DNA from: Trissonchulus latispiculum
Taxonomy: Eukaryota > Nematoda > Enoplea > Enoplida > Ironidae
Reading direction: 5' to 3'
Assembly (NCBI GenBank): GCA_030248195.1
Contig: JASAND010020580.1
Location: 1-64,000 of the forward strand
Length of the DNA: 64,000 nt
Shown: in pieces, positions 4,672-49,385 of the stretch
Numbering within the stretch: position 1 is the stretch's first letter
Layout: each line of letters starts with the position of its first letter
Notes under the pieces: model-generated
The model's database searches: none
Seen by the model: only the letters and a program-made list of their open reading frames with translations
Told to the model about the DNA's origin: nothing
Translations under genes and position numbers: made by a program

Positions 4672-5752
4672 AGCCCGGTTCATACTTGTCTCTATGTCTC
4701 TGTCTCTGAGTCTCTGTCTCTACGTCTCTGTCCCTTTGTCTCTACACTGATAGAGACGTCTCTACACTGATTAAAAGGACAAAAAGACAGAGACTAGGTC
4801 ATGTGACTAGAGTTGTGCCGTTAACAAATTTCCCGGGCCGGGACCGGGCCCGGGCCTGCGGAACCAACCGGGCCGGGCCTCGGGCCGGGCCGAGCCCGGG
4901 CCCGGAGGCCGCCCGGCCCGGAGGCCCGATTCAAGGCCCGGTAGGCCCGGTGGGCCCGGCGGCCCGGTGGGCCCGGCGGCCCGGTGGGCCCGGCGGCCCG
5001 GTGTAGGCCCGGTCGGCCCGGTGAAGGCCCGGCATACAAAAAACAGTGCCAAACAATAGTTAGTGCTATTTATTACAACTTAGACAACTCGCGTAAGCTT
5101 AAATTGGACTTTCTAGTGAAGAAATTGTGGAAAAAATTAGAAAATGGGTAGTAAAAATTTGACCGGGCCTCACCGGGCCCGGCCGTGCCTCCCAGGCCCG
5201 GTAGGCCCGGCTCGGGCCGGGCCTGCGCGACCGACCGGGCCTGGGCCCGGGCCGGGCATACCGCTCCAACAACCGGGCCCGGGCCGGCCCGGTGCAGGCC
5301 CGGCCCGGGCCCGGCCCGGAGCCCGAGGCCCGATTCAAAGCCCGGGCACAACTCTACATGTGACAACTAATTCAAATTCTATTGGTCACTGGGTTTAATC
5401 AAAAACGAGCAAAACGTATTTCAGTCGAAAAATATTATGCTACTATTGTTGTCCAATTAACAGCCGAAGTTCTATTATGTTGAAAATTGACTTTAAAATT
5501 AGTTAAAAATGTAGTTACTTTTAAATATCCAATTTAACAGACATATCACGTGTTAGAATCTGCTATTTTGATCGGCTGCCGCTTAAGGACAGGCAGAAAA
5601 GTTGAGCATTGTTCGACTTCGCTTAGAGACTCTTAAGGACAGCTTAGAGACAAAAGGACAAAAAGACAGAGACAGGTATGAACCGGCTAAAGACAGAGAC
5701 ATAGAGACAGAGACCTAGAGACAGAGACTCAGAGACAAGTATGAACCGGGCT
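4672..5752. mobile_element. TIR element (Harbinger-like, 3-bp TAA duplication) with GTCTCT repeats
   Basis: The termini are inverted repeats AGCCCGGTTCATACTTGTCT and its complement, flanked by TAA at 4669-4671 and 5753-5755. Inside each end are runs of GTCTCTGTCTCT / AGAGACAGAGAC in opposite orientation. There is no transposase ORF, so it is a MITE. A 3-bp TAA duplication is typical of PIF/Harbinger and ISL2EU elements; that assignment is inferred. A second MITE is nested inside (4808-5356). It lies in a DEPDC5 intron. Confidence 0.75.
4808..5356. mobile_element. hAT-type MITE with CCCGGG/GGCCCGG subterminal arrays
   Basis: Termini TAGAGTTGTGCC and GGGCACAACTCTA are inverted repeats, flanked by an exact 8-bp duplication CATGTGAC (4800-4807 and 5357-5364), the hAT signature. 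Both ends carry about 200 bp of very GC-rich short repeats built from GGCCCGG and CCCGGGCC, unlike the AT-rich surroundings; the middle 120 bp is AT-rich and unique. Open frames across the GC-rich parts are Pro/Gly/Arg repeats on both strands and are not genes. Confidence 0.9.
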
Positions 5753-5873
5753 TAAGAGTACAAAGATAATCGATAAAACAGTCACTTATTCACGGATCCA
5801 CAGGGGATACAAAGGAATCAATAAAATAAACCAGGTGCAATAAATAAATAAATAAATAAATCAAGCAATTGAC

Positions 5874-5934
5874 CTGTTGCAATCTTTGGCATATCAGTTC
5901 GTTGAAAATCACATCACACGACGCGTCCTGCCAT
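5874..5934 (-). CDS. DEPDC5: DEPDC5/Iml1 exon: ICQRL motif
   Basis: Acceptor CGTCAG, donor CAACAG|GTCAAT; phase 2 in, phase 0 out. It encodes WQDASCDVIFNELICQRLQQ, matching the family block VFEEFICQRLMQ just before GYQII. Its 61 bp and phases join the exons on either side in frame. Confidence 0.95.
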
Positions 5935-6210
5935 CTGACGAATACAAATAAGAACAGAAATAATAAAAATAATATCAAGACTGACAAGCAGTATAATATA
6001 GCATACTGAGGGAAATACACTGTGTTCTAATAATGTACGTGAACTACATGTACTACATGACCCAAATTTCCGCAAACGCCACACATAATTTGATATTGCA
6101 TATTGTGCACTACTTGCATACGCAACCAGATTAATAGATGAGAAAGAAATAAAGAACATATCAAAAATCTGTGAGTGAACATAGTAGGCAGGAAAGGTAG
6201 GACGACTTAC

Positions 6211-6349
6211 AGTTCCTTTCTCAAGCCATCATCCAGCTCAATCACGTGTTCAGAAAAGACATAATCATTCTGCAGAGAGTGACCATCTGGGAAGAAGTCT
6301 GTTGTGACCGGAAGACAAGCCGGTACTGATAAGGCCTTCCAATCCACGT
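6211..6349 (-). CDS. DEPDC5: DEPDC5/Iml1 exon: DWK...PACLPxTTDxFPD motif
   Basis: Acceptor TTTTAG, donor AACT|GTAAGT; phase 1 in, phase 2 out. It carries the most recognisable DEPDC5 signature, [20 protein letters not shown], followed by LQNDYVF (family: [22 protein letters not shown]...LQNDY). This fixes gene and strand. Confidence 0.97.
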
Positions 6350-6707
6350 CTAAAACATTAAACAAAGACAACGCATAAACATAATCAATAAGCTCACAGG
6401 ATTCTAAAAATGCTACATATGGCCCGACTAACTGGAAAGTTTTCAGTTATTAAAGTACAGGGGAAAGCATTGCTTTGTTGATAAATTGCTATCTGTTTTG
6501 CAGTTTTGTATCAGCCTATATATACACAAGACTTCAAGATAATTATCTATAATTGTGCAGTGTACTAAAAATGTTCCTCCTGCATTTGTAAAGAATAACC
6601 TTGATAAGAAAATTATGTACAAAAAATTGTCCTTGTCTACTTCAAAACTTCATAGCGATAAGCTTAAATACCCAAAAAGCTTACTACAGTTTACAATACA
6701 TAAATAC

Positions 6708-6784
6708 CAATTTGGATATCAGGATTCCACTGTTCCTCTCCCGTAACTCCCCAGGCCCAGACCAAACTTGACTTAGTCTCAGCT
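6708..6784 (-). CDS. DEPDC5: DEPDC5/Iml1 exon: WAWGVTGEExW motif
   Basis: Acceptor CAGGAAG, donor AATTG|GTATTT; phase 2 in, phase 1 out, which matches both neighbours. It encodes SLVWAWGVTGEEQWNPD. WAWG(V/A)TGEQxW just before the DWK motif is a conserved block in invertebrate Iml1 proteins, as far as I recall. The acceptor was chosen by phase; the alternative CAG seven bases earlier would put a stop in frame. Confidence 0.85.
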
Positions 6785-7361
6785 CTTCCTGGAAAAATTT
6801 AAGTTATTTCTTCAAGTATACAATAACAATCAAAGTAAAAGTCAGCGAAACTAAAGCTGGACACAAAAGTCTAAGTAGAAACTTGTTACCACTTGAACAG
6901 TGCGTGCGTATCAAAGCAATTGATACCTTGTCGAGGCATCATATTTCTGTCATGAGGAGAAGCCGAATCGCTGCTAAACAGTTCAAAAATGGAACATCGT
7001 ACACAAAACAGTATTTGGCTGTGTCCTTCTTAATATCTTCAATGTGGTAAATAATCACAGCGTGCCTATTCTGAAAATGAACACTGTGAAAAGACGGGCC
7101 TTTAACACCCCAGAAGTAATAGAATTTCATCCAAAAGCAGCTCATACGACGTCAAATTTTAAAAACATTCCTGATAACTTGTGGCCTTTACCCACAATAA
7201 AATATGTAAGGTTCACATTGACTTCAATGAACTGAAATAAACGTATGTCGGAAAGTTAACGAGCATCTTGGTGCGTCCAAATCATAAGAGTAGACAAAAG
7301 AAAAGCACTAAACTGTCAATATCTGTGTGCAAAACGTTTACTGGAACGAGAAATGATTTAC

Positions 7362-9300: not shown

Positions 9301-9515
9301 CTAAAAAGTTCACAAAATTCAGTCAGACCGACCACAATACACAGTTTGAGCTGCTTGAGACAGCAAATAAACCAATTTAATAAAACGTTTGCTAGCTGGT
9401 GTTTTGCTCAGATTTATATTAAAACGTAAGTGGATATCCTGACTATCCCATCCAACACCTGAGGTAAAGGGCAAGAAAGTAGCTGAAAAATGAGTGTTCT
9501 GCGACAGCAGCCTAC

Positions 9516-9548
9516 TATGTGTTAAAGATAGATTATCTTTAACACATA
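9516..9548. repeat. Perfect 15-bp dyad near left end of the palindromic element
   Basis: TATGTGTTAAAGATA, three bases, then the exact complement TATCTTTAACACATA. The same dyad lies at the mirror position on the right (17088-17120). Just inside it on the left, an element ATCTTTAACACATAAACCAC is repeated directly at about 9534 and 9611. Subterminal dyads and repeats could bind the element's integrase; that is inference. Confidence 0.8.
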
Positions 9549-10545
9549 AACCACACTTTTAATCAAACTAATTTTGAAGCAATATTCTGCGTTTTACATT
9601 TTGATATTAAGATCTTTAACACATAAACCACACTTTTACTCAAACTAATTTTGTTGTAATAGGCAGTATCTAGAAAGGGTTTATCGTCAGCTGTGTCTTT
9701 CAATATATACTGACACAAATTTTTTATATCACAGCAACTGGTTTGGTAAACATACATTATCCAACAGGTTTTCAAACAAGTTTTATGAAAGCAATACTGC
9801 TAAATTAATTTTTTCCGATTTTTTTTGATTGAAGGGTTCTTGTTAAACATGTGTTCAAACCAATTTTGAATTTTAATAATATTTTGTTCAAATAGAAACT
9901 TCCGATAATAAAATGTTCAGGTTCCCCAATTACCATTTTTTAATTTCCGATTTTGGTGGTCCTTTGTAAAGCTCACTATTAATATTTCAATTTTATCTCT
10001 ACAAGGTTTCAACAACAATCCGATTGCTTCTACCATTCTCTATTCATTAATTAAAATTTTCATCAGACAAACCATTACCAGTTTTGCCTGTCGCTTGTTG
10101 AACATTTGTTCGTAATCATCTCAAATTATCATAGCAAACCTTACTATATACGTTGTGGCGATATAATTTGAATGTTGATGTCAAGGAGGATATGCCAAAT
10201 TTATGGAAAAATAAAAGGTATTTTATTTTTGTTAAGCAATGATGAAGAATAAGAATTTATTATATGTGTACGTTTGACCGTGCATGTCATAATATGCCAA
10301 ATAAGACAGCCAAATTATATGTATTATAAAATTTTTAGACTCATTTGATTCAGCTAACCTTTAGTTTAAAAATATTTATATATTTAGTTTGAAACTCATG
10401 TTTATCTAAAGAATAGAACAATATTAATCTTCAAAGTTCCGAATTTATATATATCTAAATTCTTGCACAAGTTCAATGTTATTAAGACACTCCAAATAAG
10501 TTGATTACCGTTTCGGCCCCCGCCCATACGATTTTTTCTTTTTCT

Positions 10546-11014
10546 TTATTTTTTCAACACACAACACATATTACACACATCAGATACAAGACTAATAGCA
10601 TCACATTTATTAGTTAAGCCAATAATGAAAAATTTTCCGTTATGAAACAGTCTAATAGTACCTCCTTTCATTTTCCAAATAATTCCACTGTAAATTTCCA
10701 GCTCTAAACATGCACTAGTGTAGACGTTTCTTAATTTTTCGTACAGAGCTTCCAGGTCTACTTCATATCCCAGATGATGGGACACAACCAAGTTGCAAAC
10801 AGTTTGTTCCTTTACCAATAAATTCAAAATTTTGCTCAAGTCAGAAATGCAAGCATTAGCATCATCTTCGGATTTAGCTCCAAGACATAGGAAGCTTCCC
10901 GTTGAAAATATCAAAAATGTGCAGGGTTTCAGAGTAAGGATAGCACCACTAAACCGTCTAGGATTATAAACTGCACCCGGAATTGTAAGTAAGTCAAGTT
11001 TTGAGTCAAATTTG
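10546..11014 (-). CDS. TBP-like protein, left-arm copy (5'-truncated)
   Basis: This frame is open from the palindrome centre (about 11014) to a stop at 10546 and encodes most of a TATA-binding-protein fold. Repeat one: KLDLLTI, YNPRRFSGAIL, then FSTGSFLCLGAKSEDDA, which line up with YNPKRFAAVIMRI and SGKMVCTGAKSEE of cellular TBP. Repeat two: LELEIYSGIIWKMKGGTIRL and FHNGKFFIIGLTNK, matching YEPELFPGLIYRM and SGKVVLTGAK. It lacks the first dozen codons (the MKIVNLVLKG part is present only in the right copy) because the arm ends there. It has the codons that are frameshifted in the right copy. Confidence 0.82.
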
Positions 11015-11264
11015 CCTGGATTCTGTCGAAGAATGTAAAGAAGCGTATAAAATTGACCAATTTAATTACTATGGTTTACAGGACTTTGATACTATTGTAT
11101 GCGGTGAATATTGTATTTATTTTTAATAAAAAGACTGGGAGGTTGCAGTTTTGATGAAATTATAGACTATTTGAGAAAAAGGAGCGAAAAGAATGATTCT
11201 ATAGTGAAACAGTTTGCTGATAGATTACGAATTTATAAACATTACCCCTCTTTGCAGACTTGTC
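11015..11264 (+). pseudogene. Adenain-like cysteine protease, C-terminal remnant
   Basis: Most of the unique centre reads as the end of a Polinton/adenovirus-type cysteine protease: NYYGLQDFDTIVCGEYCIYF, then, after one inserted T near 11116-11121, LIKRLGGCSFDEIIDYLRKR. The Gln before the active site (oxyanion-hole position), the Cys of VCGEYC and the following FDEII helix are the family landmarks. The catalytic His and Asp/Asn lie upstream and are missing. In Polintons this enzyme is thought to process capsid proteins. It ends just upstream of the TBP-like start codon at 11277, so the two genes were neighbours in the parent element. Confidence 0.78.
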
Positions 11265-11276
11265 AGCGTAGAAGTT

Positions 11277-11809
11277 ATGAAGATTGTCAATTTGGTATTG
11301 AAAGGCAAATTTGACTCAAAACTTGACTTACTTACAATTCCGAGTGCAGTTTATAATCCTAGACGGTTTAGTGGTGCTATCCTTACTCTGAAACCCTGCA
11401 CATTTTTTAGATTTTCAACGGGAAGCTTCCTATGTCTTGGAGCTAAATCCGAAGATGATGCTAATGCTTGCATTTCTGACTTGAGCAAAATTTTGAACTT
11501 ATCGGTAAAGGAACAAACTGTCTGCAACTTGGCTGTGTCCCATCATCTGGGATATGAAGTAGACCTGGAAGCTCTGTACGAAAAATTAAGAAACGTCTAC
11601 ACTAGTGCATGTTTAGAGCTGGAAATTTACAGTGGAATTATTTGGAAATGAAAGGAGGTACTATTAGACTGTTTCATAACGGAAAATTTTTCATTGTTGG
11701 CTTAACTAATAAATGTGATGCTTTTAGCCTTGTATCTGATGTGTGTAATATATATGTGTTGTGTGTCGAAAAAATAAAGAAAAAGAAAAAAATCGTAACG
11801 GTTGCCTAG
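11277..11809 (+). pseudogene. TBP-like protein, right-arm copy (complete start, one frameshift)
   Basis: ATG at 11277 opens MKIVNLVLKGKFDSKLDL, the first strand of a TBP-like saddle, and both repeats follow as in the left copy. About 165 codons is close to the 180-residue TBP core, with no N-terminal tail. A one-base deletion near 11648 (TGGAAATG, where the left copy has TGGAAAATG) ends the first frame at 11651; the rest continues in another frame (KGGTIRLFHNGKFF) to about 11809. Cellular TBP bends TATA DNA to start transcription; whether this version does so is unknown. The start lies a few codons after the protease end, suggesting an operon-like layout in the parent. A TBP gene is not, to my knowledge, part of the standard Polinton set. 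Confidence 0.85.
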
Positions 11810-12404
11810 CCGTCTGATGAGGCCCTGTGGCGGGGGCCGAAACGGTAATCAATTTATTTGGAGCAATCAATCAATTAATAACATTGATCTTGTGCAAGAA
11901 TTTAGATATATATATATCTATAAATTCGGAACTTTGAAGATAATATTGTTCTATTCTTTAGATAAACATGAGTTTCAAACTAAATATATTCATATTTTTA
12001 AACTAACGGTTATCTGAATCAAATGGCACAAATTATTTGGCATATTATGACATGCACGGTCAAACGTACACATATAATAAATTCTTATGTATTCTTCATC
12101 ATTGCTTAATAAAAATAAAATACCTTTTATTTTTCCATAAATTTGGCATATCCTCCTTGACATCAACATTCAAATTATATCGCCACAACGTATATAGTAA
12201 GGTTTGCTATGATAATTTGAGATGATTACGAACAAATGTTCAACAAGTGACAGGCAAGACTGGTAATGGTTTGTCTCATGAAAATTTTAATTAAAGAATA
12301 GAGAATGGTAGAAGCAATCGGATTGTTATTGAAACCTTGTAGAGATAAAATTGAAATATTAATAGTGAGCTTTACAAAGGACCACCAAAACCGGAAATTA
12401 AAAC

Positions 12405-15400
12405 ATGGTAATACCTGAACATTTTTTTTATTATTTTATTTCCCTTCTCCAAGAAGGCAAGACCTCCCACGGTGTCCCATGTCCCCGTCCAGGCGGGTTT
12501 TTTGAAGCCGGCCCAGGCCACCCCGCCTTCTGGCGCCGGCTTCTAATACTGGCGGGCGATGTTGAAGAAAACCCGGGCCCCACATATCCGTGTGGTGCCT
12601 GTGGTCTGAACGTTACCAGAAAGGACTACTCCATGGCATGCCACGGCTGTGGCATCTGGTTCCACCGTGTCTGTCTCCGTTTGTCAGTCAAGGACCTACT
12701 GAGGGAATATTCCTGCGGGTGGACTTGCTCAAACTGTCCCTCCACCAGCTCAGCAGCCCAGGTCCAGTCACCCAATCCCCCCAGCCGCCCCCAAGCTTGC
12801 CCGCCGGCAAACCGACCCGGCAGGGCCCCCCGGGTCAAACCGCGACAGCAAACCCACAACAGCCCCAGAGCCCTCCGATTTCTGCAGTGGAATTCCAACG
12901 GCCTCAGCTCAAGCAAAAGAGCTGAATTGGCCAAATTGCTCCATGACCGCAACGTGGACGTTGCCGTCCTTCAGGAAACCCACCTCCAACCTGGCATGAA
13001 CTTTGAAATCAAGGGCTACACCGTATACCGGGCCGACCGTCTGGTTAGAAGGAACCGCAATGCCCGTGGAGGCAAAATTGGCGGAGGGGTAGCTACTCTC
13101 ATCAAACAGGGTATCCAGCACCACCTCCTGCCTGCCACCCCCACCGGGGATACCACCACTGAACTGTTGTCCGTCAAGCTGTTTGAGGCACGTGAACTGA
13201 CTGTTACGAACATTTATGTGCCACCTGTCGTCTCCTGCCAGCAGGACAACAGAACCCAGCAGTTCGACCCATCCGCCCTGCCCTCCGGTAGAGGATCCCT
13301 TATCCTAGGAGACCTAAACGGTCATAGCCCTCTCTGGGACACCTCAGCGTCTGCCTCCGATTCTGTCGGAGAGAAATTCGAGGACTGGATGGAATCGAAA
13401 GGTTTTGTTCCAGTTAACGACGGATCCAGAACTAGAACAAATCCCACCACCGGCAACGGATCGGCCCCAGACGTGTCGGCTGTGCACGCATCCCTGGTCC
13501 CTGCTGTCTCCTGGTCTGTCGACCCCACCCCCTCTGACTCGGACCATCACCCCATCTGGCTGTCTGTCTCTGCTGCCGGGCCTCCGACGAAGAAGAAGCT
13601 GAAGCGGCTACGGCTGGCCAAAACGGATTGGGCACAATTTGCGGATATCTTGGACCAAAAGCTTACCGAATCCTGCTCTGAACCAGACTGCAGCCTCAAT
13701 CACCTAGTCAGATCCTTCAGCTCCGCCATCGTGGAAGCCCAGGATGCCTCTGCCCCTTATGGGGACTCAAGGGTTCCTGCGCCCTGGTGGAATGCAGAAG
13801 CTGCCGCGGCCATTCAGACGAGAGAGCGTCTGGCAACTGAGGCTAAAGCGGATCGACGTAAGCTAGAAGAATGGAAAGCCGCCTGCCGGGAAGCTAGAAG
13901 AATTATTGCCAAGTCCAAACGGGACCACTGGATCCAGTATGTATCACGTCTGGATGCCAGAACCGATCCGAAAGAAATCTGGAACACTGTCAAGGGCCTG
14001 AACGGAAGACCGAGAGCTGCCCCTTCCGGGGCATGTCTTCAGCGAAATGGCAAATTCTTCTCTACTCCCAGGTCGAAGGCCACGGCATTCATCAAGGAAT
14101 ATGCCCGAGTCGCTGCCGTCAGATCCCGGAAATCTGACCGGAAAACCATCATTGAAACGAAGAATGATCTCAATAGCCCGTGTGGCCATCCCGACGACGA
14201 ACCCAGCGCCTGTGCTCCCTTCTCCATGGGTGAACTTCAAACGGTTCTCCAGAGACTCAGGGCCAACGCCGCACCTGGGATCGACCGGGTCAGGAATGCC
14301 AGCCTCCGCCACCTAACGGATAAAGCCAAATCGATCCTTCTCCACATCTGCAACCGCTCATTCAAAGAAGGATTCTGCCCTACTCCGTGGAAAAGGGCAA
14401 AGATTGTGCCCATTCCCAAGCCAGGGAAAGATGCCTCTGACATCTCCAGCTACCGGCCAATCGCGCTCACATCCTGTCTCGCCAAAGTGATGGAGAGACT
14501 GGTGCTGGGTCGGTTATCCTATCTGCTGGAAAAGAACGAGGCTATCACGAGATACCAAGCTGGCTTCCGATCTGCCCGGTCCACCCAGGATCAGGTTCTC
14601 AGGATCACACAATCGATCAGCGACGGTTTCAACCACAAAAAGCCGGCCCACCGAACTGTCATGGCTCTCATCGATTTCTCCAGAGCATTCGACAGAGTCT
14701 GGCACTATGGTCTGCTGCGGGCGATGTCGCTCCTCAGGGTGCCCAGATGCATATCCCGGTGGGTAAAAGCTTTCCTACAGGATCGGCTCTATTCCGTCGA
14801 ATTTGAAGGGGCCACTAGTCGGCCAAAACGATTCGGCTGTGGTGTTCCCCAGGGTTGTGTCCTCTCCCCAACTTTATTCCAGGTGTTTATAAACTCCCTG
14901 GCTGAGGCAGTTCCTGAAGAAGTGGAAATTTCCCTATTTGCTGACGATGTGGCCATCTGGTGCAAACACCCACAGATTGCGGTGGCCACCCGTAAACTCC
15001 AGGAAGCCCTTGATGCTATCACCAAATGGGCTAGATCGAACAAAATGGTCATCAACGTCCAGAAGTGTGAAGCCTCAGTGTTTACCACCTGGAACAAGGA
15101 GCAGAACGTCAAACCGCACCTAACCATTGACTCCCAGCAAATCCCAGTCACCAAGACCCCGACTTTTTTGGGAATCAAATTCGATCCATCTCTATCCTTC
15201 AGGGCCCACATCGACCAGCTCATCTCCAAACTCAGAAGAAGAAACAATATTCTTCGATCCCTAGCTGGTACCAAATGGGGATGCAAAAAGGAAGACCTTC
15301 GGATGGTGTACCTTGCTTATATTGCATCCGCCATAGAATATTGTGGCCCTGCCTGGATGACGACTACAGCTCCTTCCAACCTGAAACGGCTTCAAACAAT

Positions 15401-16679
15401 CCAGAACGAAGCCGCCAGAGCCATAACAGGCTGCCCTAGAGGATCCCCTGCTGAACTCACAGTCAACGAGGCAGGCCTGGTGCCTCTTCATGTCCGTGCC
15501 AAATCCCTAACTGCTTCAGCATACGAAAAGTATCAGTGCCTCCCGGATTCTAACCCCACTGCAGATTCTTTTGCGGCCCCAACTGCCCGTCGCCTGGCCT
15601 CCCAGGCCTCCTGGCGGGAGGAGGGCCGGTCTCTAACAGTGCTGGCCTCCACCGACAGCCTGGCCAAGAAAAAAATAGCCACAGTCAGCCCGTTTCCGCC
15701 CTGGGAAGCCCCATCCGGGCTGGAAATTGTGTCTGAGATCTACGGCATCTCCAGAAGAGACCCCCCAGAGAAGAAGAAATCTGCTACGGAAAGTATCCTG
15801 GATCGCCTGACCCCGGCCGATATCGAAATCTACACTGATGGATCAGCCCAAGAAGGAACCAGAAACGGAGGAAGCGGCGTCTATATTCTTCACCATCGGC
15901 TGGGTCTCACCCGGAACATAATCGAACCAGCTGGTCTGGTCACCTCGAGCTACGGAGCTGAGCTCCGGGCGATGGACCGCGCCCTGGAATGGATTGACGC
16001 GACGGCATCCGCTGAAGATCAAATCATCAGAATTTTTTCGGATTCCCAATCGCTGACCAGGAAGCTGTCCTCTGGTCCTGCCAAATCAACTACCTATAAG
16101 GAGTTTACCATCTGGCGCCGCATAAAGTCCATCCTGAACTGTCAACCACGAACCCTCCAAATCCACTGGCTGCCCGGCCATTCGGGCATACACGGCAACG
16201 AAATCGCTGACACGCTCGCTGGCCTTGGCTCAAATCTGGATCAGGCTGCTACTCCGGTAGATTTCAGAGCAGTGAAATCCCTAATTTCTAGACATTTCAC
16301 TAGCACCTGGCAATCCGGTTTATCCTCGGACAGACTAGACCTGCTTCGAATCCCCCGCAACCCTGACCCGAAGGAGACTGGACTATCCAGGGCTGACAGG
16401 TCAGTCCTGTCCCAACTTCGTGTCGGGGGCTTCTCTCCAATCCTAAACTGGTACCTCCATAGGATTGGAGCCCTTGATTCCCCCTCATGTGCCCACTGCC
16501 CTGACCAGGAAGACACACTGTCGCATGCCCTACTCTACTGCCCACAATCAGACCGCCCACGCCTGTCCCACTTGGGTCCTAACCCTAGCCTTGCGGTCCT
16601 CTGGGAAAAGCCTCGGGAGGTCCTTGCCTTTCTCAGAGAATGCGGCCGCCTCCGTCCTGGAGGTGTCCGGGCCGATTGA
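12405..16679 (+). CDS. I-like retrotransposon ORF: 2A-PHD-endonuclease-RT-RNase H-zinc knuckle
   Basis: One open frame of 1424 codons. In order: a 2A ribosome-skipping motif GDVEENPGP (residues 51-59); a C4HC3 PHD-type finger right after it (CGACG...CHGCGIWFHRVC...WTCSNC, about 62-111); an APE-type endonuclease (LQWNSNGLSS, VLQETHL, GDLNGHSPLWD, SDHHPIW); a reverse transcriptase (SSYRPIALTSCLAKVMERL, LIDFSRAFDRVW, GVPQGCVLSPTLF, FADDVAIW); RNase H (IYTDGSA, SSYGAELRAM, FSDSQSL, LPGHSGIHGNEIADTLA); and a C-terminal CCHC knuckle (CAHCPDQEDTLSHALLYC). The layout fits the I group. No stop or frameshift is seen, so it is recent and may be active. The ATG at 12405 lies in the flanking arm, not in the element (starts about 12426), and there is no in-frame ATG before the 2A motif, so the natural start is unclear. 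Confidence 0.95.
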   Translation: MVIPEHFFYYFISLLQEGKTSHGVPCPRPGGFFEAGPGHPAFWRRLLILAGDVEENPGPTYPCGACGLNVTRKDYSMACHGCGIWFHRVCLRLSVKDLLREYSCGWTCSNCPSTSSAAQVQSPNPPSRPQACPPANRPGRAPRVKPRQQTHNSPRALRFLQWNSNGLSSSKRAELAKLLHDRNVDVAVLQETHLQPGMNFEIKGYTVYRADRLVRRNRNARGGKIGGGVATLIKQGIQHHLLPATPTGDTTTELLSVKLFEARELTVTNIYVPPVVSCQQDNRTQQFDPSALPSGRGSLILGDLNGHSPLWDTSASASDSVGEKFEDWMESKGFVPVNDGSRTRTNPTTGNGSAPDVSAVHASLVPAVSWSVDPTPSDSDHHPIWLSVSAAGPPTKKKLKRLRLAKTDWAQFADILDQKLTESCSEPDCSLNHLVRSFSSAIVEAQDASAPYGDSRVPAPWWNAEAAAAIQTRERLATEAKADRRKLEEWKAACREARRIIAKSKRDHWIQYVSRLDARTDPKEIWNTVKGLNGRPRAAPSGACLQRNGKFFSTPRSKATAFIKEYARVAAVRSRKSDRKTIIETKNDLNSPCGHPDDEPSACAPFSMGELQTVLQRLRANAAPGIDRVRNASLRHLTDKAKSILLHICNRSFKEGFCPTPWKRAKIVPIPKPGKDASDISSYRPIALTSCLAKVMERLVLGRLSYLLEKNEAITRYQAGFRSARSTQDQVLRITQSISDGFNHKKPAHRTVMALIDFSRAFDRVWHYGLLRAMSLLRVPRCISRWVKAFLQDRLYSVEFEGATSRPKRFGCGVPQGCVLSPTLFQVFINSLAEAVPEEVEISLFADDVAIWCKHPQIAVATRKLQEALDAITKWARSNKMVINVQKCEASVFTTWNKEQNVKPHLTIDSQQIPVTKTPTFLGIKFDPSLSFRAHIDQLISKLRRRNNILRSLAGTKWGCKKEDLRMVYLAYIASAIEYCGPAWMTTTAPSNLKRLQTIQNEAARAITGCPRGSPAELTVNEAGLVPLHVRAKSLTASAYEKYQCLPDSNPTADSFAAPTARRLASQASWREEGRSLTVLASTDSLAKKKIATVSPFPPWEAPSGLEIVSEIYGISRRDPPEKKKSATESILDRLTPADIEIYTDGSAQEGTRNGGSGVYILHHRLGLTRNIIEPAGLVTSSYGAELRAMDRALEWIDATASAEDQIIRIFSDSQSLTRKLSSGPAKSTTYKEFTIWRRIKSILNCQPRTLQIHWLPGHSGIHGNEIADTLAGLGSNLDQAATPVDFRAVKSLISRHFTSTWQSGLSSDRLDLLRIPRNPDPKETGLSRADRSVLSQLRVGGFSPILNWYLHRIGALDSPSCAHCPDQEDTLSHALLYCPQSDRPRLSHLGPNPSLAVLWEKPREVLAFLRECGRLRPGGVRAD

Positions 16680-16722
16680 ATCTGTATTCAGGTGGCTGGA
16701 AGCATCAACAACAACAACAACA
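12426..16722 (+). mobile_element. Non-LTR retrotransposon (I-like) nested in the palindromic element
   Basis: The insert is bounded by a 7- to 8-bp duplication ACATTTT (12419-12425 and 16723-16729), shown by comparison with the intact left arm. It ends in a short (CAA)n tail (about 16706-16722) instead of poly-A, as many I-type elements do. The GC content is far higher than the surroundings. The untranslated ends are very short. Confidence 0.93.
12491..12543 (+). other. Possible pseudoknot just before the 2A motif
   Basis: Two interleaved complementary pairs: AGGCGGG (12491-12497) with CCCGCCT (12522-12528), and GAAGCCGGC (12504-12512) with GCCGGCTTC (12535-12543). The order a-b-a'-b' is that of an H-type pseudoknot. 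It lies close to the element's 5' end, where some retrotransposons carry self-cleaving HDV-like ribozymes, but the second hairpin and joining strand of that fold are not visible, so I do not call a ribozyme. Confidence 0.4.
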
Positions 16723-17213
16723 ACATTTTATTATCGGAAGTTTCTATTTGAACAAAATATTATTAAAATTCAAAATTGGTTTGAACACATGTTTAACAAG
16801 AACCCTTCAATAAAAAAATCGGAAAAAAATTAATTTAGCAGTATTGCTTTCATAAAACTTGTTTGAAAACCTGTTGGATAATGTATGTTACCAAACCAGT
16901 TGCTGTGATATAAAAAAATTTGTGTCAGTATTGAAAGACACAGCTGACAATAAACCCTTTCTAGATACTGCCTATTACTTCAAAATTAGTTTGAGTAAAA
17001 GTGTGGTTTATGTGTTAAAGATCTTAATATCAAAATGTAAAACGCAGAAAATATTGCTTCAAAATTAGTTTGATTAAAAGTGTGGTTTATGTGTTAAAGA
17101 TAATCTATCTTTAACACATAGTCGGCTGCTGGCGCAGAACACTCATTTTTCAGCTACTCAAGGAGTATATATAATCGATGAAAAACAAAAAGTGTAATAT
17201 TTTACACACTTAC

Positions 17214-42235: not shown

Positions 42236-43587
42236 GATACTAAAAGTCTGACCAAAAAATGTAGAAAGCGAAATTGTTTGCTTTATATCTCGTAAACGCT
42301 TCAAGATAACTGCCATAAATTATATATTTTCTGAACCGGAATGATGAGATCTTTCTTCTCGTGAAGAAAGTTTTTTGAAATTTCCCGTGCGATTTCAAAG
42401 GGTGCCGCTTTTATATGTCCAGAAGGATTGGTAAATGCTACACCCACGATTTTTTCAGGAAAATGTTCCCCTTGCCCGAATGTCCTACACACCAAATTTC
42501 AGCTTTGTTGGTTGAAAATTGCGTGAGTTATTCCATTTTTTAGATTTTCAAAATCCTTTGATCTTTGCCGCTTATTCGACTTTGACTGGTTGTTACTCGC
42601 CACTCGCTAACGAAAAAAATTTTTGATTGGATTTTCAGGACCGCCTGGGTGTCCGCTTTCATCTGATATACGTGGTATTTCAAAATTTGAAAGTCGATTT
42701 TTTCGAAAAATACCACTTTTTGACCCAAAATTCCGGCAAAGCGAATCCACCAAAAGTGAATAAAAATAACATAATCATAAAGTTCATTATGAGCTGAATC
42801 CAACTATATAAAGTTTTCGTGGCTACGACTTATATTGCGCCAGCAATGAATTTTTAAACATTTTACTTATTTCAGCTGGTTTTTGCTAGTTTACGCTGGT
42901 TCAGGTAAATCTAGGCGGCAACATCAAAGGAAGCCAAAAACCAGCTTGAAATAAGGGAAATGTTTAAAAATTCATTGCTGGCGCAATATAAGTCGTAGCC
43001 ACGAAAACTTTATATCGTTGGATTCAGCTCATAATGAACTTTATGATTATGTTATTTTTATTCACTTTTGCTGGATTCGCTTTGCCGAAATTTTGGGTCA
43101 AAAAGTGGTATTTTTCGAAAATATCGACTTTCAAATTTTGAAATACCACGTATATCAGATGAAAACGGACACCCAGGCGGTCCTGAAAATCCAATCAAAA
43201 AATTTTTTCGTTGAGCGAGTGGCGAGTAGCAACCAGTCAAAGTCGAAAAAGCGGCAAAGATCAAAGGATTTTGAAAATCTAAAAAATGGAATAACTCACG
43301 CAATTTTCAACCAAAAAAGCTGAAATGTGGTGTGTAGGACATTCGGACAAGGGGAAAATTTTCCTGAAAAAATCGTGGTTGTAGCATTTACCAATCCTTC
43401 TGGACATATAAAAGCGGCACCCTTTGAAATCGCACGGGAAATTTCAAAAAACTTTTTTCACGAGAAGAAAGATCTCATCATTCCGGTTCAGAAAATATAT
43501 GATTTATGGCAGTTATCTTGAAGCGTTTACGAGACATAAAGCAAACAATTTCGCTTTCTACATTTTTTGGTCAGACTTTAGTATTCG
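42236..43587. repeat. Palindromic (foldback) element, 1.35 kb
   Basis: Arms of about 670 bp (42236-42910 and 42940-43587) are close inverted copies around a short centre at about 42925. Outer ends: ACTAAAAGTCTGACCAAAAA and TTTTTTGGTCAGACTTTAGT. Each arm carries an apparent 87- to 101-codon frame (DSAHNELYDYVIFIHF), which is a repeat reading and not a known protein. A piece of the outer end (TACTAAAGTCTGACCAAAAA) also occurs alone near 32820. Confidence 0.9.
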
Positions 43588-43701: not shown

Positions 43702-46080
43702 TTAAGCTAAGGTGCTGCACACATCATTACATGTGGATGATACCGATTTGTCGAATTTTATATGAAACTTCTGTTTTTTAACAGTTTTTCGAATTTGCAA
43801 TTTAAAACTTTGCTGATTATATTCCTTGGAAATGGCTAAGTCCAGTAATTTCCTCGACTTAATAATAAAGCTATCATACGTATTACAAATACGGCCATAT
43901 CTATTAATTTTACCACCTACTACGTTATACAGACATCCTTTACTGATGTTGCTTTGTGCATGCGGCAAAACTATTGTGTTAAAAGGGAAATTATCCCTTT
44001 TATCAAAAACATCAGTAAAGAAGTGTTTATTCCTTATAGATATATTGATGTCGAGTACATCTGCGGATAAAGGGTCCGAGTTAACTTTTTTAAGGGTAAG
44101 CGAATTAGGGAACATATCTTTCTGATGGTTGTCAAACTCATTGTCATCATTAACAGCAGTAATATCATCAATATATCTATACATATGTCGTAGCTTTTCA
44201 ATTAAGCTATACTCTCCATTACGAAGTTTGACCATTACGTATTCATATTCGTAGCAAAAAAGAACAAGGTTGGCAATAAACGGGGCTGCATTAATACCCA
44301 TTGGTATTCCAAGTTTTTTGTTTGATTAGAATATTACCGACAGCGAAATATGAATTGTCAACTAACCAAATTAACATCTCATTAAGTTTGTTTTGATCAA
44401 CGACCATTCCTTTTTTCGTCTTATTACCCCAATTTGCTGAATTTTTATGAATAATCAGTTTTCTATTACTCTTCCCGAACCCCAAGGCAATAAATTTCTT
44501 CATGCATTGTATAATATCAGTGTGATGTAGATTAGTATACAGTTGACCGAAGTCATAAGTGCTAACAGACTTACACAATTTTCTTTTATTAAGCTTAGTT
44601 AAGTAGTTTAGTAAGTTAGTATTGTTGTTAATTATCTAAAACGGTTTGCAGAATTTGCTATTTCTTGAAATTGCGTCGCAGTAGTTTTTAATAGAGTTTT
44701 GTATAACTTTTAACCCATGGCCAAGTTTTATAGATAGAGGTTAACAGCAAGCATTTTTTTGCTGCGATAATGCTTCTAAATCCAATAGGAGTTTTATGAA
44801 ATTTAGGTATAATTTGCATGAAAGGTAGCCCGGATCCTTGATCAGGCTCTACATCTAAGTGTCGGAGCATAGAAATTTGATGATTGATAACATTAGCAGG
44901 CGTGTTAGTAGCAATTTCAGACGTATTGTTAGTGGAGTAATACCCGATTTCCTCGAGTATTTTTCACATAGAACTTCTTACAAATAATAGCAAAGTTATT
45001 GGATGCTTTATCAATAGTTGTGATAACATATTTCTTATGTAATTACTTAAGGTTATTACGATTAAAACGGAACGAAGATAGGTTAGTCGAATTTACAGGC
45101 GATTCTACATTAATCATTTTGTTAAATTTGTTAGTAGTTAAAGTTTTCCATGCTTCAAATTCGTAATCTGGTATGTTGAATCTCAAACACAATTTGTTTA
45201 TAAATTCATCTAGTCCTTTGCGAAATTCGAGTTTGATTTCCCCATAGTTTAGCGAACTAGGAATTCTAAATTTTGAACCAAAGCTTAACAATTTTTTGAT
45301 CTCTAAGTCTTCAATAACTTCTAAGCTCCAGGTGATAACATAGTTATGGTAACTGTCCTTGAAAGGGTTAGTTTCTCATTCACACATAAAATCTGAATCA
45401 ACCGTGTGTCTATTTCGAATGCAGTCTGTCTGTAATTACAGAAAATTTGTGCCAAAGTGCGTCCATATACAAAACAGGCATAGGTTTACTTGCTTCTTGT
45501 CTAACCCGGTGGGCCAGACCGCTTGTAAATTAGTGTCGTCAAAAATTTTGGTGAAGTTTACTTTATCAAATAATTTGTTTTTAAATTCGAAACGTATAAG
45601 ATTGTTACGAATTGTTTGTTTTGTATAAGGTTCAAAGTAATCTATTTTATATTTACAAAAATCGTGAATAATTTCTCCTAAGACAAACTGTCTTCCGTAA
45701 ATGCTAAAAGTATATTTAATGATTTTTTTATCTAAATTATGTAAGTAATGTAGCAAATTTGTTCTTGTTTGTTTAGGATTAGCCTCAAATTTTGCAACAA
45801 TTTCGTTGAAAAATGCTTCAGGATTGATTTTCTTATCCCTTAGATTTCTGTTTTTATTTCTGCCTCTTTTACGGCTAAATCTTTGTAGCTTATTGAAATT
45901 TGAGAAAACAGATTTATGAAAATTCTCCTTAGACAATCGTTCATTAAGACAATATGGGAATTTTGTTCTAAGCTCTCTAATCCAGAAAGCTTCCCGTTCT
46001 AGTCTAATACGATTGCGATCAGTTTCAGGGACGTCATCCCTAATTTTTTCTATAATTTTAACCATAGGTTTACCGCAGTT
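43702..46080 (-). pseudogene. Naiad-type Penelope-like element, main part (endonuclease end, CxC linker, RT)
   Basis: Minus strand, in order: the end of a GIY-YIG endonuclease (NCGKPMVKI, then RLEREAFWIRELRTKFPYCL, 46080-45960); a basic linker; the CxC block (DSDFMCE, then a stop at the second position; SFGSKFRIP near 45260); LPFMQIIPKFHKTPIGFRSI (about 44800); SVSTYDFGQLYTNL (44560); the RT core from MGINAAPFIANL to YRYIDDIT (44300-44160); and the thumb (43702). Stops and frameshifts split it into five frames, so it is dead. Its N-terminal endonuclease continues at 50252-50502 beyond an insertion. Confidence 0.88.
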
Positions 46081-46208
46081 ATTAAATTCAGAATTATTAT
46101 AGCAAGTAGTCAATCTTTTTTAAAACGTATATATTTCTTTTACGGTTTCGCGCTGCTTGAAATTAATATATGAAAAGATACAAAATTATTGCAAAGTAAT
46201 GGAAAGAA

Positions 46209-47115
46209 ATGGTAGATTCAGAAACGTTAATTAATGCTTTACATAAACTTAATAATTCGACATATGCTAATTCGGTATATACTTACGATTTTACGGAAAT
46301 GTACACTTCACTTGAACATGAAGTTATTATTAAAAATATGGAAGAACTTTTAGACAAATTTATGGGCAATAGTATTATATCAGCTACTCCAAAAACGGCT
46401 TTTTGGACAAACAAAATAGATTCAACAAATGCTATTGCAAAAGAAAAACTTTTAAGCTATATTAAATGCATTGTTCACAATACGTATTTTCGTGTTGGTA
46501 ACTTAGTTTTTCATCAAAAAATTGGCATCCCCATGGGAACAGATTGTGCACCTTTTATTGTAAATCCTATTCTTTTTAACTGTGAATTTAATTATATGAA
46601 AACTGTTTTATACTCCAAACACTGGAAATCTGCAAGCTTGTTATTAAATATTTTTCGTTACATGGACGATTTAACTGTGTTCACTGATAGAAATAAATTT
46701 GAAAGCATAATTTCAGACATGTATCCCATTTCCTTAACCGTAGTTCGTCAAAATGATAATCCTTTTTCAGCAGAGGTTCTTGATATTAACATTGAAATTA
46801 TAGATAAAAAATTTATTTTTAAGCCATTTGATAAAACAGAAAAATTTAATTTGAAAACTATAAAATTTCCTCATATTAATAGTAATTTTTCTACTGTATA
46901 TACTTGCATATATTATCGTTAGAAATGAATTAGACCGTCTGTGGAAATTATCCGAAAATGTTGACTTTTGGAAATATGCAGTTAATAATTTAATTCAAAA
47001 GTTATATCCTAGAGGATATTCAATTACAAAACTTAAAAATGAAATAAACAATTTTAAATCGAAAAATCTCAGAATACGTTTAACATACTCCATTCATTTC
47101 GTATTTAAAATTTAA
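46209..47115 (+). pseudogene. Penelope-like reverse transcriptase fragment
   Basis: 46209-46922 is open and carries RT motifs VYTYDFTEMYTSLEHEVI, GIPMGTDCAPFIVN and FRYMDDLTVF; the last differs from the usual RYIDD by Ile to Met. One extra base near 46910 shifts the frame, and the thumb follows (RNELDRLWKL, LYPRGYSITKLKNEI) to a stop near 47115. The endonuclease and fingers upstream are absent. Similar to, but clearly diverged from, the antisense Naiad RT next to it. Confidence 0.88.
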
Positions 47116-47563: not shown

Positions 47564-47807
47564 CCATTAACGTACAGGGGTTCGAAAGGTGAGATTAGCT
47601 CCCACGCTCCCCTCTACGTTGGTGCAGTTAGCACAAAATTATTTTTCAGTTTGTAACGTCTGTTTAAGTCTATTTTGCCAACAACAAAAAGACAAAATTA
47701 TTATATTTTATTATATATATTTTTTACTTTTTAAAACGTTGATATTTGCTCCTTACCCTTTATTGGGTCTATCACTACCCTTAAATGGGTCTATCACTGC
47801 CCTTAAG

Positions 47808-48508
47808 GGGGGGGGTCGCTTTTTTTGGGCAATTTTTCGACCTTCTCCGATTTTGCTCATTTTTACATATTTTGTACTCCCAATGGGTCCGCGAAACAAG
47901 ACAAGTGCGTTTTGCACAATATTGCTTCTATCGTTCTGTAGAGTCCTTCAAAGGTGACTCCGACATGTGCTAAACATAGGAAAATGAAAAAGTTATGGTA
48001 AAAAAGATTGTGTCCAAAAATGTTTTCGCTGTGTAAGAGACTCAGCTCTGAAATTTTTTCACCCTTGTTAAGGACATAATGTAGGGTGCAGCAAATGACT
48101 TTGGTGCAATTCTGTTGAGAATTAAAATTTTGGCAAAGTTTTAAAGTCAGAATTTGTGAAAATTCCGAGTTTGGCTATTTGCCAAAATTCCAATTCTCAA
48201 CAGAATTGCACCAAAGTCACTAGCTGCACTCTACATTATGTCCTTAACAAGGGTGAAAAAATTTCAGAGCTGAGTCTCTTACATAGCGAAAAAGTTTTGG
48301 ACACAAACTTTTTTACCATAACTTTTTCATTTTCCTATGTTTAGCACATGTCGGATTCACCTTTCAAGGGCTCTACAGAACGATAGAAGCAATATTGCGC
48401 AAAACGCACTTGTCTTGTTTCGCGGACCCATTGGGAGTACAAAATACGTAAAAATGAGCAAACTCGGAGCAGGTCGAAAAATCGCTCAAAAAAGCGACCC
48501 CCCCCGTA
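47808..48508. repeat. Palindromic element D, 0.7 kb, G-run/C-run ends
   Basis: Arms 47808-48150 and 48168-48508 are inverted copies: GGGGGGTCGCTTTTTT at one end, AAAAAAGCGACCCCCC at the other, CAGAATTGCACCAAAGTCA shared at the centre near 48160. The left edge is CTTAAGGGGG. It directly abuts palindrome E. Confidence 0.9.
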
Positions 48509-49385
48509 AGGGGGGGGCTACTTGGGTCAAAAATTCGACCCTCACGGATTTCGCTCAAATTGTGCCCATTGATACTCCCTAGGCCCCTACGCAAGCCATT
48601 GAAATTTGAGCTGATTTCGTCCAGTAATAGAAAAGTTACAGCCATTCAAAATTTCCAATTCCTATTCAAAATGGCCCAAAATCGGAACTTTAAAATTTTC
48701 ACTTCTGACAACGATATCTTACTCAAATCAATACCGTTCGAAACGTTCTGTAGCTCATTTTGCAGCTTAATACAATATCTAAAACTTGTCGAAGAGATTT
48801 TTTCAAAATTCGGTTTCTAACTTTTACAGTAATTGTTTATGTGAGGTAACCCCCAAAACACAGAAATTGAAAAATCGTGAAAATACGGTTTTTGGCCTAT
48901 AACTTTGAATGGCTGCAAAATAAACGTTTATGCCAAGAAGAAAAGTTCTTTAAAATTGAAAAAGCTATCGATTGATATAGATATTGTGCATATTTGAAAA
49001 GTTCGAAAATTTTTGAAAAATGTCAGATTTTGACCATTTTTATGGGTTACCTCACATAAACGATTACTGTAAAAGTTAGAAACCGAATTTTGAAAAAAGC
49101 TCTTCGACAAGTTTTAGATATTGTATTAAGCTGCAAAATGAGCTACAGAACGTTTCGAACGGTTTTGATTTGTGTAAGATATTGTTGTCAGAAGTGAAAA
49201 TTTTAAAGTTCCGATTTTGGGCCATTTTGAATAGGAATTGGAAATTTTGAATGGCTGTAACTTTTTTATTACTGGACGAAATCAGCTCAAATTTCAATGG
49301 CTTGCGTAGAGGCCTAGGGAGTATCAATGAGCACAATTTGAGCGAAATCCGTGAGGGTCGAATTTTAGTAGCCCCCCCCTTAAGT
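48509..49385. repeat. Palindromic element E, 0.88 kb, adjacent to D
   Basis: Arms about 48509-48850 and 49045-49385 are inverted copies (GGGCTACT...TTCGACCCTCACGG against CCGTGAGGGTCGAATTTTAGTAGCCC), with a looser centre near 48945. The right edge CCCCCCTTAAG mirrors the left edge of D. Each arm shows an 86-codon frame (ending LVEEIFSKFGF), a shadow of the repeat. Confidence 0.9.

Follow-up and report, generated by a model that had tools for sequence, protein, structure and literature searches.

In archaea and eukaryotes alike, the TATA-binding protein (TBP) is a core transcription factor that marks the start of transcription. Why should a gene for such a protein reside in a mobile element? 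This question is raised by a 64,000-nucleotide stretch of the Trissonchulus latispiculum contig JASAND010020580.1 (positions 1 to 64,000, hereafter called the window), in which the first-pass annotation had recognised a palindromic, Polinton-type element with a TBP-like gene in each arm. It had proposed a mobile, virus-like element that carries its own core transcription factor and perhaps its own promoter system.

The palindromic element and its TBP-like genes

Self-alignment and comparison of the ends delimited the palindrome to positions 9478-17158. Its four arm pairs (9478-9917/17158-16722, 9929-10304/12412-12033, 10342-10524/12025-11829 and 10527-11017/11797-11303) are 88-97% identical, which bears out the palindromic structure. 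The outer ends read 5'-AGTAGCTG...CAGCTACT-3' and are flanked by CAAGAA (9472-9477) and CAAGGA (17159-17164), a candidate 6-bp target-site duplication in which five of the six bases match. A single-copy loop (11017-11303, plus strand) separates the arms. It comprises 287 bp of the protease gene, namely the 3' part of an adenain-like protease (motif CGEYCIYF) whose frame is broken; positions 11082-11303 translate as DFDTIVCGEYCIYF, followed by a stop. The loop was aligned to positions 6897-7184 of the open copy L023, inside its protease ORF (6680-7186), and thus the protease end noticed immediately upstream of the TBP-like gene in the plus arm could be confirmed. Alignment to this open copy (C1068, L023) revealed that both arms represent the right end of one element. 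This arrangement of identical right ends, head to head around a single-copy loop, suggests that a fold-back form was integrated as such. The window copy is a defective fold-back form, a dead derivative of the Polinton-type element el1A, whose right arm was interrupted by insertion of a non-LTR retrotransposon. The ORF of the latter (12402-16679, plus strand; 1425 aa) is open and showed Pfam matches to endonuclease, reverse transcriptase and RNase H as well as a weak PHD-like match.

In the left arm, the TBP-like ORF (10546-11061, minus strand) encodes 171 aa with both TBP repeats and matched Pfam TBP (PF00352) in two stretches at E=1.1e-21 (76.8 bits, cut-off 22.9). The copy in the right arm (11303-11774, plus strand) gave a match in one stretch at 1.7e-15 with the ORF 11208-11651, so that a TBP-like gene is indeed present in both arms. 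The closest sequence match in the PDB was a TBP (2.2e-14). A chance match as the source of the signal was ruled out by the Pfam scores and by the many copies in the genome. Both copies had been described as slightly damaged. This holds for the plus arm, which contains one TGA and one TAA in frame and retains the start MKIVNLVL; in the minus arm this first strand was lost at the arm junction and replaced by other sequence, but there is no internal stop.

Fold-back forms recur in this genome. Among the matches listed, inverted pairs of TBP genes were also found on C10458, C1659, C16677 and C17620; those on C10458 (L025) and C17620 (L036) were examined, the other two were recognised by coordinates. 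In L025, complementarity amounts to 99-100% in the outer arms but to no more than 92% in the arms with protease and TBP. Such forms are reminiscent of the snap-back defective genomes of protein-primed viruses. The window itself contains two more palindromic regions (42237-43584 and 47800-49366), the arms of which are 89-97% complementary. A reverse transcriptase fragment at 46200-46922 matched RVT_1 below the cut-off (5.2e-5), and the ORF 43702-44325 resembles this fragment and is without a Pfam match.

TBP genes in Polinton-type elements of the host genome

The host assembly (733.8 Mb) was searched with the el1 TBP, which yielded 998 candidates. The best 150 of them were scored and showed 100 to 44% identity; 135 have no internal stop. 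Copies with intact frames are thus present elsewhere in the genome, where the first-pass annotation had expected a full-length relative. Nineteen stretches with TBP copies, one of them 75 bases long, were taken for reading. In open copies, TBP matches reached 2.3e-24 (85.4 bits) in family C (L030) and 4.7e-37 (126.1 bits) in a second lineage, el2, at a cut-off of 22.9. The TBP gene is closely linked to the protease gene: of the 150 protease matches that were scored (1052 candidates), at least 108 are followed on the same strand by a TBP gene at a distance of 11-71 bp. This count is a lower bound, based on the 150 TBP rows of the el1 query and 10 of the 150 rows obtained with human TBP; the other 42 protease matches had no TBP partner among the matches listed. 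Likewise, a protease gene lies just upstream in at least 100 of the 150 el1-query TBP rows among the matches listed. The expected neighbourhood of TBP and Polinton genes was thus recovered elsewhere in the genome, and the intact frames beside these genes support the view of a mobile, virus-like element with its own core transcription factor.

In seven el1 families (A-G), a gene block ends with the protease gene and, after it, TBP. The complete block starts with NADAR (with a zinc finger), a membrane-like gene of ~155 aa, a P-loop ATPase, a gene of ~210 aa and an integrase with a chromodomain, and continues with a penton-like gene (~285 aa), a basic gene (~150 aa), capsid, protease and TBP. 'Penton-like', 'basic' and 'membrane-like' are labels given in this analysis, and the position of the membrane-like gene, before or after NADAR, varies between copies. 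Beyond the block lies the polymerase, which shares the orientation of the block in B and has the reverse orientation in A and C (families A-C were looked at). That of family B (L028 5655-9950) matched DNA_pol_B_2 at 1.2e-45; the family C ORF at this place gave no polymerase match in Pfam at 0.1. In family C, the integrase (L030) matched rve at 1.5e-12 and Chromo at 3.7e-10, and NADAR (L030 8281-9051) was detected at 6.9e-36. The protease passed narrowly (Peptidase_C5, PF00770, 1.1e-4; 22.3 bits, cut-off 21.3). The ATPase was recognised by reading its P-loop (APTKAGKT), its Pfam matches of 0.02-0.04 being below the cut-off. Six of seven capsid members matched the DJR-like family PF21738 (best 3.5e-6), member 1 having 24.4 bits at a cut-off of 27; the capsid profile found no relative among solved structures. 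NCBIfam and PHROGs offered no usable names for the unnamed genes tested.

Terminal inverted repeats were identified in B (269 bp, 94.8% identity) and C (189 bp, 97.4%), and shorter ones in E; none were found between the stretches compared for family A. From the outer limits of these repeats, element lengths of ~14.7 kb (B) and ~13.0 kb (C) were determined. AG...CT ends, a hallmark of Polintons, are present in the window element, in L022 and L009 and in family B. A 6-bp target-site duplication is a further Polinton feature; none was found in families B and C, and the flanks in the window agree at the five bases mentioned above. With polymerase B, rve integrase, P-loop ATPase, adenain-like protease, DJR-like capsid, inverted repeats and AG...CT ends, the elements resemble Polintons/Mavericks (adintovirus-like). 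The excerpt of PMC4028283 available to us gives a size of 15-20 kb for Polintons and a core gene list in which TBP and NADAR do not appear. Compared with these, the two elements measured here are slightly shorter, and at least two lineages carry TBP.

This second lineage, el2, emerged from a search of the host assembly with human TBP (681 candidates, best 150 scored), accounting for about 50 of the best 150 rows. In el2, TBP overlaps a NADAR gene (2.9e-40; L046 1008-1529) and precedes a 111-aa gene followed by the capsid gene. The capsids of el1 and el2 are related (hhalign probability 98.5, E 1.9e-15). NADAR lies just upstream of at least 54 of the 150 listed TBP rows, including 49 of the 51 el2-type rows heading the list (150 NADAR rows were listed). 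In 31 of the 150 rows TBP resides within ORFs of 310-437 aa (e.g., on C1641, C10649 and C18194), which possibly encode an extended or fused TBP. In at least ten of these, NADAR follows at a distance of 4.7-5.0 kb; from the coordinates of this third arrangement we infer a third TBP-bearing lineage. Among the matches listed, at least 17 of the 150 el1 TBP rows possess NADAR 5.9-8.1 kb upstream. A NADAR-domain gene thus goes with TBP in el1, el2 and, by coordinates, part of the third set.

Relatives outside this genome were also sought. Among the best 120 of 240 protein matches, the el1 TBP has five close relatives encoded on short metagenome contigs (38-46% identity), the sixth match falling to 1.3e-20. 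The capsid profile matched 1730 of 8000 scored proteins; an 'F54H12.2-like' protein of Apostichopus japonicus and a protein of Littorina saxatilis were among the 120 matches listed. A search of prokaryote assemblies with the capsid alignment yielded six contigs in bacterial bins, which probably are animal contamination since some of the bins stem from tubeworm and mussel symbionts. Two of the six encode a TBP, L052 (2.2e-45) and L057 (4.4e-8). On L057 (Rickettsiaceae bin), which also carries relatives of integrase, protease and capsid, TBP lies directly beside a TFIIB-like gene (5703-6985; PF00382 at 1.6e-8, above the cut-off), the best solved relative of whose product is TFIIB at only 0.019. 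Judged by their adjacency, the two genes may form an element-borne pair. L053 spans polymerase to protease with no TBP seen, and L054, L055 and L056 are partial or broken. Scans of IMG/VR with TBP, the el1 and el2 capsids and a 30-row capsid alignment disclosed no relative.

Selection, fold and origin of the element TBP

Median dN/dS values, calculated with exclusion of pairs with a dS of 0.02 or less, were 0.144 for the el1A TBP (18 of 19 loci, 151 pairs), 0.070 for the protease (13 loci, 74 pairs), 0.120 for the el2 TBP (10 loci, 44 pairs), 0.106 for NADAR (9 loci, 36 pairs) and 0.061 for the el2 capsid part (8 loci, 28 pairs), decayed copies being under-represented since the copies were chosen from the best matches. 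The 111-aa gene gave no value. By these ratios, the element TBP is under purifying selection. At least two Polinton-type lineages in this genome, and probably a third, regularly carry a TBP gene whose dN/dS is low. The el1 protein evolves fast, having 41-62% identity to family A copies, compared with 76-89% for the neighbouring capsid protein.

The element TBP of ~165 aa has no N-terminal extension and is predicted to be essentially the saddle alone. An AlphaFold model of the open copy on C1068 was of high confidence (pLDDT 94.4, pTM 0.80), and its predicted order of strands and helices fits the two-repeat order expected of a TBP. At the positions which we take to be the DNA-intercalating aromatics and the TFIIB contacts in an alignment with human TBP, all ten el1 rows show F, F, Y/F, F and both glutamates; in el2, the first of these glutamates is replaced by Thr (9 of 10) or Ser. 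Both el1 and el2 have Thr at the position of yeast V203, and el1 has Arg at that of L205. The two residues are invariant in 15 of 15 el1-type rows and reside at what are presumably sites where mutants alter TATA specificity.

The host's own TBP was found on C14517, where two exons matched the human protein at 87% and 79% identity; a third coding stretch was read in L040. Trees of 65 and 62 rows were calculated with element, archaeal, eukaryotic and metagenomic TBPs, no other viral TBP being among the rows; the smaller tree omits four long rows (two archaeal, human TBPL1 and one metagenomic). The element TBPs form one side against the sampled archaeal and eukaryotic TBPs (100/98 and 99/92), a deep placement that is uncertain because the branches are long, as a program warning indicated. 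The labels 'archaeal' and 'eukaryotic' were assigned from search lists, and one 'eukaryotic' row (P0134) fell among the archaeal ones. In both trees the host TBP groups with human TBP (99/96). Tight clustering of the element copies with the host TBP, named in advance as an observation that would speak against the proposal, was not seen in either tree. The TBP of L052 was placed between the element side and the cellular side (98/91). The el1 and el2 TBP profiles match each other at E 2e-25 and both proteins have a deletion of four residues before the Y-x-P motif, where the cellular rows were aligned without it. This deletion may not be ancestral since P0005 on the el1 side does not have it either.

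TATA-like boxes and the possible function of the element TBP

To look for promoter sequences, 53 upstream windows of 100 bp from seven families were compared with 1348 overlapping windows within the same elements; the remainder of the 70 gene-family pairs was missed by the start patterns. The 6-mer with the highest z upstream was ATAAAA (23 occurrences, 6.9 in 60 shuffles). It was found in 23 of 53 upstream windows and in 102 of 1348 controls, and the pattern [ACT]ATAAA[AC] in 28 of 53 and 132 of 1348, respectively. Boxes of the form [ACT]ATAA[AG][ACG] precede NADAR (4/4), ATPase (4/4), the penton-like (7/7), basic (7/7), capsid (6/6) and membrane-like (2/2) genes and are rare within 100 bp of the starts of TBP (1/7), protease (1/6), integrase (1/5) and the 210-aa gene (0/5). 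The base in front of ATA is C or A in all six matched boxes of the penton-like gene (three each) and in all seven of the capsid gene (6 C, 1 A), T in all seven of the basic gene, and C or T (two each) in four matched integrase boxes; altogether, 25 of 37 pattern hits in el1 begin with C or A rather than T. In el2, TATAAAA was recognised by eye before the 103-aa gene in seven of seven copies, before the 111-aa gene in six of seven and before the capsid gene in some. In the outside contigs, [ACGT]ATAA[AG][ACG] within 110 bp was found in 2/8 upstream windows of L052 (with TBP), 0/6 of L057 (with TBP and TFIIB), 1/7 of L053 (without TBP; TATAAGG), 1/3 of L056 and 0/1 of L055, numbers that do not separate contigs with and without TBP and come from sequences that differ in sample and in base composition. 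The suggestion that the element has its own promoter system thus stood as far as conserved TATA-like boxes before many element genes are concerned; the two TBP-bearing outside contigs have few or none, and reading of the boxes by the element TBP is putative.

We consider it probable that TBP belongs to the genuine, conserved genes of Polinton (Maverick)-type elements and starts the host polymerase on element promoters. During element expression, the element TBP would bind to the TATA-like boxes and recruit host TFIIB through the two retained glutamates. Host RNA polymerase, probably Pol II, would then initiate at the capsid gene and other genes of the element without requiring host TFIID. TFIIB of the host is the likely partner because el1 keeps the glutamates and no TFIIB gene was recognised in the el1 elements read. 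A more far-reaching reading, which we put forward only tentatively, is that of a private core-promoter system, in which a fast-evolving TBP with changed DNA contacts reads the element boxes and belongs to an old viral TBP lineage outside the sampled archaeal and eukaryotic TBPs, common to several element lineages. We hypothesise that the el1 TBP would specifically read [CA]ATAAAA.

Are the boxes promoters at all? They might be by-products of coding constraint and A-rich composition, an explanation that we regard as unlikely. Several boxes do lie inside the frame of the upstream gene, in Lys/Arg-rich tails, and the scrambled motif AAAATA is also somewhat commoner upstream (6/53, controls 81/1348). 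The A content, however, differs little (0.352 upstream, 0.328 in controls), and the reverse motif is not enriched (2/53, controls 77/1348). Moreover, ATA accounts for 32.6% of the Ile codons overall, yet of the 14 Ile columns without variation across the seven families three have ATA in 7/7 and the other 11 in at most 4/7. The three coincide with the boxes of the penton-like, basic and capsid genes. As the families are related and the columns not fully independent, this result is no formal probability. Three of 23 further invariant Ile columns (4-6 families) consist of ATA throughout. The first lies in a box-like sequence preceding the integrase and the second adjoins the start of the 210-aa gene; the third, in the ATPase (4/4 families), is no box and would suit the by-product explanation. 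Judged from codon usage, the penton-like, basic and capsid boxes are not readily accounted for by coding constraint.

Alternatively, the TBP may act against the host by sequestering TFIIB or TFIIA or by occupying host promoters, the element genes being served by host TBP. The retained glutamates of el1 would suit this role, and boxes of the el1 types C/A/T-ATAAAA are tolerated by host TBP as well. For pure interference, though, conserved boxes in the element would be needless, even if host TBP could read them, and we assign this possibility a low probability. A role in replication, packaging or the choice of integration sites instead of transcription, e.g., by bending element ends or by tethering to TATA promoters, appears quite improbable. 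TBP bends DNA and in family C its gene adjoins the terminal inverted repeat, but in el2 it lies in the interior of the element, with NADAR on one side and the capsid gene on the other, and the boxes stand before genes. Finally, a recent retrocopy or capture of the host TBP, carried without function, is highly improbable in view of the low dN/dS and the trees. With the exon-split host TBP on the human side and the element TBPs on a separate branch, a host retrocopy was ruled out. Compared with host TBP, TRF and TBPL1, the element TBP shares family and repeat structure; it differs by its own branch in the trees and by the missing N-terminal extension.

Virus-encoded TBPs are already known; what sets the present case apart is a TBP in small integrating elements. 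According to the parts of PMC7498053 at hand, the TBP mimics of beta- and gammaherpesviruses, KSHV ORF24 and EBV BcRF1, direct host Pol II to viral promoters; their TBP-like central domain was found by threading, they serve TATT late promoters and they act among six viral proteins. Unlike these mimics, the element TBP is a TBP core alone, was found by plain sequence search and goes with ATAAAA-type boxes. Excerpts of further papers report TBPs in mirusviruses (PMC10132985), Yellowstone Lake phycodnaviruses (PMC4602308) and the RefMSA viruses of PMC7221094, in many together with TFIIB. As stated in the excerpt of PMC7221094, viral TBPs often differ at the TFIIB-contact glutamates, and most such viruses have a TFIIB-like protein. 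By the figures in these excerpts, the large dsDNA viruses are far bigger (mirusvirus 431.5 kb, phycodnaviruses 171-178 kb) than el1 with its 13-15 kb and no recognised TFIIB. Among the literature matches listed, no report of a TBP in Polintons or adintoviruses appeared in the titles and the beginnings of the abstracts, which is no proof of its being unpublished.

A TBP gene under selection in small integrating elements suggests that these elements may recognise promoters without the help of host TBP, and through the conserved boxes el1 promoters can be predicted from sequence. The trees pose the question of whether the TBPs of mirusviruses and large DNA viruses have a common origin with the element TBP lineage. 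If the private core-promoter system is real, no replicon smaller than these elements of ~13 kb would be known to recognise promoters by a TBP of its own.
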